A DNA stretch of 39,359 bases from Candidatus Nanopelagicales bacterium (GTDB lineage: Bacteria > Actinomycetota > Actinomycetes > S36-B12), in contig JAURME010000144.1 of NCBI GenBank assembly GCA_030830865.1, forward strand, positions 1 to 39,359. The letters run 5' to 3'. Both the position numbers and the translations under genes were made by a program. This document shows positions 18,108 through 18,368 of this stretch, one piece after another. The notes under the pieces were generated by a model. That model saw only the letters and a program-made list of their open reading frames with translations. It was not told where the DNA came from and ran no database searches. Numbering within the stretch: position 1 is the first letter of the stretch; every line of letters begins with the position of its first letter.

Positions 18108-18368
18108 ATGGACATGGACCCCACGATCACCCGCGACATCGTCATGCGACTCAAGCGCGCCCGCGGACAGCTCGACGGGGTCATCAACATGATCGAGGAC
18201 GAGCGCAGCTGTGGCGACGTCGTGACCCAGCTGGCCGCTGTGTCCAAGGCCCTCGACCGAGCCGGCTTCAAGATCGTCGCCAACGGGCTCCAGCAGTGCT
18301 GGGAGCAGGGCGACGACGCGCCCCTGACGCAGGAGGAGCTCGAGAAGCTCTTCCTCTCTCTGGCCTAG
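18108..18368 (+). CDS. CsoR/RcnR/CstR-family (DUF156) transcriptional regulator
   Basis: [51 protein letters not shown]; two Cys retained, His Cu ligand replaced by Gly. Confidence 0.9.

Follow-up and report, generated by a model that had tools for sequence, protein, structure and literature searches.

The gene cluster

The window, a stretch of 39,359 nucleotides, contains a gene for an 86-residue protein of the PF02583 family (hereafter the repressor; its gene is csoR-like), followed on the same strand by genes for a copper chaperone, a copper ATPase and a C-S lyase (Table 1). The preliminary description had pointed to copper export genes as neighbours of the regulator, and copZ and copA are indeed found directly downstream of it, with gaps of 9 bp between the repressor gene and copZ and 30 bp between copZ and copA. 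It is through this linkage that the repressor resembles copper-sensing CsoR. The genome has no second close match to the copA of the cluster. The PatB-family lyase scores 292 bits against TIGR04350, below the 340-bit cut-off of that model. Genes were called with a home-made composition score. The tight spacing and common direction of the four genes suggest that csoR-copZ-copA-patB constitute one operon and are likely to be co-transcribed. The csoR-copZ-copA order recurs in many congeners, and the csoR-copZ gap, which ranges from -4 to 74 bp in relatives, holds no operator. The AhpD-like gene diverges from the repressor gene, an arrangement that is conserved in relatives. No full sqr/pdo module is present within the window.

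Table 1. Positions of the genes and regulatory elements discussed in the text
Feature	Coordinates	Strand	Basis
AhpD-like/carboxymuconolactone decarboxylase family protein, CDGC; divergent from the repressor	17691..18065	-	domain search
Operator ATACCCCCCGGGGTAG, ATACC-N6-GGTA class, in the spacer separating divergent ahpD from the csoR-like gene	18076..18091		sequence, palindrome search
Putative -10 element TATCCT, ~7 bp before ATG	18096..18101	+	sequence; leaderless promoter predicted
CstR-like PF02583 repressor, X-Y-Z = Cys35-Gly60-Cys64	18108..18368	+	translation, alignment, Pfam, tree
copZ-like Cu chaperone, HMA domain, MTCDHC	18378..18593	+	domain search
copA-like Cu(I) P1B-ATPase	18624..20876	+	domain search
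PatB/MalY-family C-S lyase (PLP), predicted same operon	20884..22038	+	7 bp after copA
Thioredoxin, WCGPC, predicted regulon member	26337..26714	-	motif and sequence
Second N6 operator ATACCCCTAGGGGTAT, thioredoxin gene promoter	26731..26746		motif search

Sensing residues of the repressor

The repressor matches PF02583 with 78.7 bits (cut-off 22.8) and is named by no curated family, since all its NCBIfam matches are below threshold (RicR, 40.7 of 175 bits). When the protein is aligned by phmmer to Mycobacterium tuberculosis CsoR (2hh7), its Cys35 and Cys64 fall on Cys36 and Cys65, and Gly60 occupies the position of the ligand His61; the two Cys residues and the Gly in place of His that had been noticed at the outset are thus confirmed. 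In terms of the W-X-Y-Z-(A-B-C) fingerprint of the family (PMC4235346, PMC5146963), the repressor shares with CstR the Cys residues at X and Z and a non-His residue at Y (C35, G60, C64); the Cys-His-Cys set of Cu(I)-sensing CsoRs is broken by Gly60, and position A, where CsoR has a second-shell Tyr, is Ser34. Membership in the RcnR/FrmR group, as judged by His at Y and by His3 or Pro2 near the N-terminus, is ruled out because these diagnostic residues are absent: Y is Gly60 and the N-terminus reads MDMDP. In 14 orthologs from the family, neither Cys35 nor Cys64 varies, and Gly60 is almost constant. A wider set of 221 extracted homologs has Gly at Y in 184 cases, His in 23, Ser in 10, Glu in 2 and Ala in 2, and a Tyr at position A occurs solely in the His-bearing homologs. 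An AlphaFold2 model of the repressor monomer (pLDDT 74.8) contains three helices; a monomer cannot show an inter-subunit Cys pair.

Phylogeny and gene neighbourhoods of relatives

In a core-region tree, all GxxC proteins form one clade (UFBoot 99), and the larger clade uniting them with S. pneumoniae CstR (UFBoot 96-97) is separate from the C-H-C proteins and the CsoR references, the alignment being short (86 columns) and the reference sequences fragmentary. The repressor groups with S. pneumoniae CstR and with C-x-C proteins of Streptomyces and Mycobacterium, apart from the C-H-C CsoRs, and no clustering with Cu-responsive CsoRs lacking the His was found in this tree. A phylogeny, which the preliminary description had suggested as a check, thus places the repressor with CstR and away from CsoR.

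The gene neighbourhoods of relatives point in the same direction. Among 108 mapped relatives outside the family of the window (order-level genomes together with Streptomyces, Mycobacterium, Nocardia, Gordonia, Nocardioides and others), a sulfur gene (rhodanese, persulfide dioxygenase (PDO), TauE, CoA-disulfide reductase (CoADR) or SQR) lies within 5 kb in 54, and a weak copA-like match is found near 2. The order-level relatives adjoin rhodaneses, CoA-disulfide reductase-rhodanese fusions, a PDO-like MBL-rhodanese protein, TauE, SQR-like flavoproteins and thioredoxin, where the PDO and SQR names are our reading of domain matches and sequences. Distinct C-H-C proteins have copper neighbours in 17 cases, sulfur neighbours in none and neither in 6; the corresponding numbers for distinct C-nonH-C proteins are 16, 58 and 79.

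The same survey yielded several side observations. In several genera a GxxC regulator gene directly follows a DtxR/IdeR-family gene (L062-L065, L067, L068, L097, L105, L110, L111, L114, L115), and beyond it lies another conserved, divergent gene. Natural variants with Ala at Z (C-G-A) and hence one sensing Cys are found at L101 and L111, beside a DtxR-family gene. Three records of metagenome-assembled genomes titled Bifidobacterium breve (L142, CAMDKQ010000051.1; L144, CAMAVT010000004.1; L214, CAMAWO010000050.1) carry loci syntenic with those of this Nanopelagicales family, and thus their titles look wrong.

Operator, promoter and predicted regulon

The operator in the ahpD-csoR spacer has one mismatch relative to a perfect palindrome. 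It probably lies between the -35 region and the TATCCT -10 element, overlapping the spacer of a promoter that is probably leaderless, and TANNNT elements similar to TATCCT are present in the upstream regions of relatives. The placement of the operator inside the promoter suggests that the bound repressor would block transcription.

The spacing between the half-sites separates the two types of regulators. The best palindrome before C-nonH-C genes was of the N6 class in 115 cases, of the N7 class in 2 and lacking in 37, and before C-H-C genes it was N7 in 23 of 23, with 4 matches in 194 shuffled upstream sequences; these counts take in related species and so do not represent independent events. 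The two classes agree with the literature: ATACCn6GGTAT is the operator of ScCsoR, which polysulfide releases from DNA via two Cys residues (PMC7533328), and the CsoR consensus TAC-X9-GTA corresponds to N7 (PMC3902906). The operator in the window, being N6, does not fit the latter. The rule that N6 accompanies C-nonH-C and N7 accompanies C-H-C offers a simple way to assign actinobacterial CsoR-family regulators and their regulons.

The genome to which the window belongs contains three perfect N6 sites, the site in the repressor promoter and one further weak site with one mismatch, and a search with the reversed pattern gave 0 sites. A site within the window precedes the thioredoxin gene and is also kept before that gene in a sister genus; a rhodanese lipoprotein gene (L215) and the gene for a Cys-rich protein of 38 aa (L219) each follow another site, and the thioredoxin reductase gene (L228) follows the weak one. 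Seven congeners have 5-8 N6 sites each, counted on one strand (control, 0-1), and downstream of them are genes for thioredoxin, thioredoxin reductase, rhodaneses, PDO-like proteins, peroxiredoxin, SLAC1-family transporters and a Cys-rich peptide. Apart from the adjacent copZ-copA cassette, no copper genes were found at the N6 sites that were inspected, which are a part of the total. Control of sulfur-transfer and thiol genes, a feature of CstR-type repressors, is thus predicted by the operator motif alone in this genome and in the seven congeners, all regulon members being motif predictions.

The Cys-rich proteins (~37-60 aa) follow the pattern MCxxxxCxxCxKxTYxGCGxHxxxVxxxVPxxxRCxC, and in many actinobacteria their start codon is often located 30-55 nt after an N6 operator. 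Their loci include L219 (~1562, + strand) in the genome of the window and L256, L258, L259, L267, L273, L055, L070, L098, L112, L126, L184 and L213 elsewhere. Neither of the two tested has a Pfam match. This uncharacterised microprotein family apparently belongs to the core of the sulfane-sulfur regulon. N6 operators are also present at SLAC1/TehA-family transporter genes (L229, L271, L276, L277), some of which are divergent from a gene for a small GCPVCNK membrane protein, and these transporters are candidate sulfite exporters. At L215 (1056-3014), what reads from its sequence as a copD/ctaG-like gene (copper/cytochrome oxidase assembly) directly precedes the N6-associated gene for the rhodanese lipoprotein, a further adjacency of copper and sulfur functions.

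Distribution among genera

The genome that contains the window (2.49 Mb, 95% complete) encodes a single PF02583 protein, as does each of 11 further congeners, three genomes of the related genus g2 and one of the related genus g4; the metagenome-assembled genomes (MAGs) are fragmented, and statements about absence therefore rest on the 12 members of the genus rather than on one closed genome. These single proteins are of the GxxC type and adjoin copper genes where checked, and copZ-copA is located directly behind the repressor gene in the genus of the window (g1) and in g2 and g4. Sister genera g10, g12 and g13 encode two PF02583 proteins each. The first copy is a close ortholog of the repressor, encoded in the matching gene order (trmB-pepE-ahpD / csoR-like - ... 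- pepck) with no copper genes there; in one sister genus it was seen to have the same fingerprint as the repressor and ~80% identity to it. The second is a distant C-H-C protein encoded directly before copZ-copA or copA. This arrangement implies that only some of the genera have the copper cassette at the conserved locus of the sulfur-type regulator. Correspondingly, each of the g10, g12 and g13 genomes has one perfect N7 site, immediately ahead of the gene for its C-H-C CsoR, and a perfect-site search found no N7 sites in six congeners, including the genome of the window. In a trmB-pepE-pepck tree, the copper-linked g1, g2 and g4 are not monophyletic, the nodes being weak and compatible with both gain and loss. 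The copA of g4 and that of one g2 genome fall elsewhere. In g9 and g14 (L279-L282), copA is located elsewhere, with no N6 or N7 operator nearby.

Proposed control of copper export by a sulfur-responsive repressor

The CstR-like persulfide-sensor reading of the preliminary description thus gains support from the phylogeny, the neighbourhoods of relatives, the operator class and the operator-defined regulon. We consider it likely that the repressor is a CstR-type regulator responsive to sulfane sulfur and persulfides, that it represses the copZ-copA operon together with thiol and sulfur genes, and that copper export is thereby induced by sulfur stress. When reactive sulfur is low, the repressor would be bound at ATACC-N6-GGTAT sites overlapping the promoters of ahpD, its own csoR-copZ-copA-patB operon, and the unlinked genes for thioredoxin, the rhodanese lipoprotein and the small Cys-rich protein, with thioredoxin reductase as a probable further target. 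Persulfides or polysulfides would then modify the Cys35/Cys64' pair, which is expected to span the dimer interface, and release the DNA as they do for CstR and ScCsoR, so that copZ-copA, ahpD and patB would be expressed together with thioredoxin and rhodanese. As a dedicated C-H-C Cu(I) sensor and an N7 operator are absent, we propose that copper export is induced within the sulfur-stress response. The single PF02583 protein, the exclusive presence of N6 sites and the C-H-C CsoR of sister genera suggest that it is in this genus that a sulfane-sulfur repressor has taken over the control of copper efflux.

Several points count against this explanation: the immediate neighbours are copper genes, of which the repressor is the only possible CsoR-type regulator; a bis-Cys Cu(I) site without His is chemically possible; the window has no complete sqr/pdo module; its operator departs from the perfect palindrome at one position; and the evidence is comparative throughout. 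A reading with slightly less than even odds is that these genera have no CsoR-type Cu sensor at all and that the sulfane-sulfur sensor drives efflux, either through the effects of copper on thiols and persulfides or through a Cys pair truly responsive to both Cu(I) and persulfide. A dual-sensor reading, which refines the CstR-type explanation and is not exclusive of it, holds that persulfide is the ancestral inducer and that copper, either bound as Cu(I) or catalysing the oxidation of the dithiol, became a second one, accounting for the recruitment of copZ-copA. The Cys pair could respond to both signals by holding Cu(I) or being oxidised by Cu(II), copZ-copA is kept at the repressor site in three genera, and copper must still be controlled in a genome that lacks a dedicated C-H-C sensor; however, no sequence change separates copper-linked from unlinked orthologs, and we regard a dual sensor as rather unlikely.

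It is improbable that the repressor is functionally CsoR-like despite its CstR-like sequence, with linear coordination of Cu(I) by Cys35 and Cys64' freeing the operon. The genome's only copA does lie behind the repressor, and copZ-copA adjoins it in g1, g2 and g4, where there is no other PF02583 protein, but the loss of the His-Tyr-Glu network should, from what is known of the family, break the coupling between Cu(I) and the release of DNA (PMC4235346, PMC5146963). Moreover, the operator has N6 spacing and the regulon that it defines is thiol- and sulfur-related rather than copper-related, the ortholog in a sister genus keeps the fingerprint and the ~80% identity without having copper genes, and copper-linked orthologs have gained no conserved Cys, His or Met. 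A copper sensor that merely lacks the His was rejected for the missing copper regulon and the wrong operator class. Least probable of all is a chance neighbourhood, in which copZ-copA would be transcribed from a separate promoter under some other copper regulator: the data are MAG sequences, yet the short csoR-copZ gap holds no operator in the window or in relatives and the gene order is the same in many congeners, and this reading was dismissed because the operon is tight and recurrent.

Relation to known systems

CsoR for copper and CstR for sulfur are paralogous repressors whose functions are normally separate. In S. aureus, CstR controls genes of sulfur transfer and reportedly does not form a stable Cu(I) complex, and we know of no report of a copper exporter in a CstR regulon. 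What is new here is the wiring, the type of sensor being already known; the part of the literature covered, mostly titles and abstracts, has no example of a CstR-type repressor set over a copper exporter operon where the genome lacks both a C-H-C CsoR and the corresponding operator. Here a natural lineage seems to be without the copper paralog and to have its copper pump under the sulfur one, so that a matched pair of sister genera can serve to test which signal a DUF156 regulator has adopted.

The structure 7mq1, labelled csoR in the PDB and which we take to be S. pneumoniae CstR, is also C-x-C without His at Y (Asn in 7mq1, Gly in the repressor) and groups with the clade of the window, but is more distant in sequence (49 bits). 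ScCsoR (SCO0620), the sulfane-sulfur sensor of Streptomyces coelicolor, has Cys37 and Cys66, 29 residues apart as are Cys35 and Cys64 of the repressor, and the same ATACCn6GGTAT operator (PMC7533328), but it controls pdo-tauE and a rhodanese, whereas the operon in the window is copZ-copA-patB with a divergent ahpD. Our likening to ScCsoR is by description, its place in the comparison being taken by Streptomyces members of the clade, which are ~60-68% identical to the repressor and several of which adjoin the same kinds of genes (PDO, rhodanese, TauE). The C-H-C CsoRs of sister Nanopelagicales genera and S. lividans CsoR (4adz) share with the repressor the PF02583 fold, downstream copZ-copA and a G-tract palindrome operator, but differ from it in having the His and mostly the Tyr, an N7 operator and a different clade. 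Mycobacterial CsoR-like genes divergent from ahpD (L206 of M. gordonae, L211) resemble the repressor gene in the divergent AhpD-like gene, the N6 operator and GxxC, but copZ-copA is not immediately behind them; the Rv1766/Rv1767 pair may be a counterpart of these mycobacterial genes.
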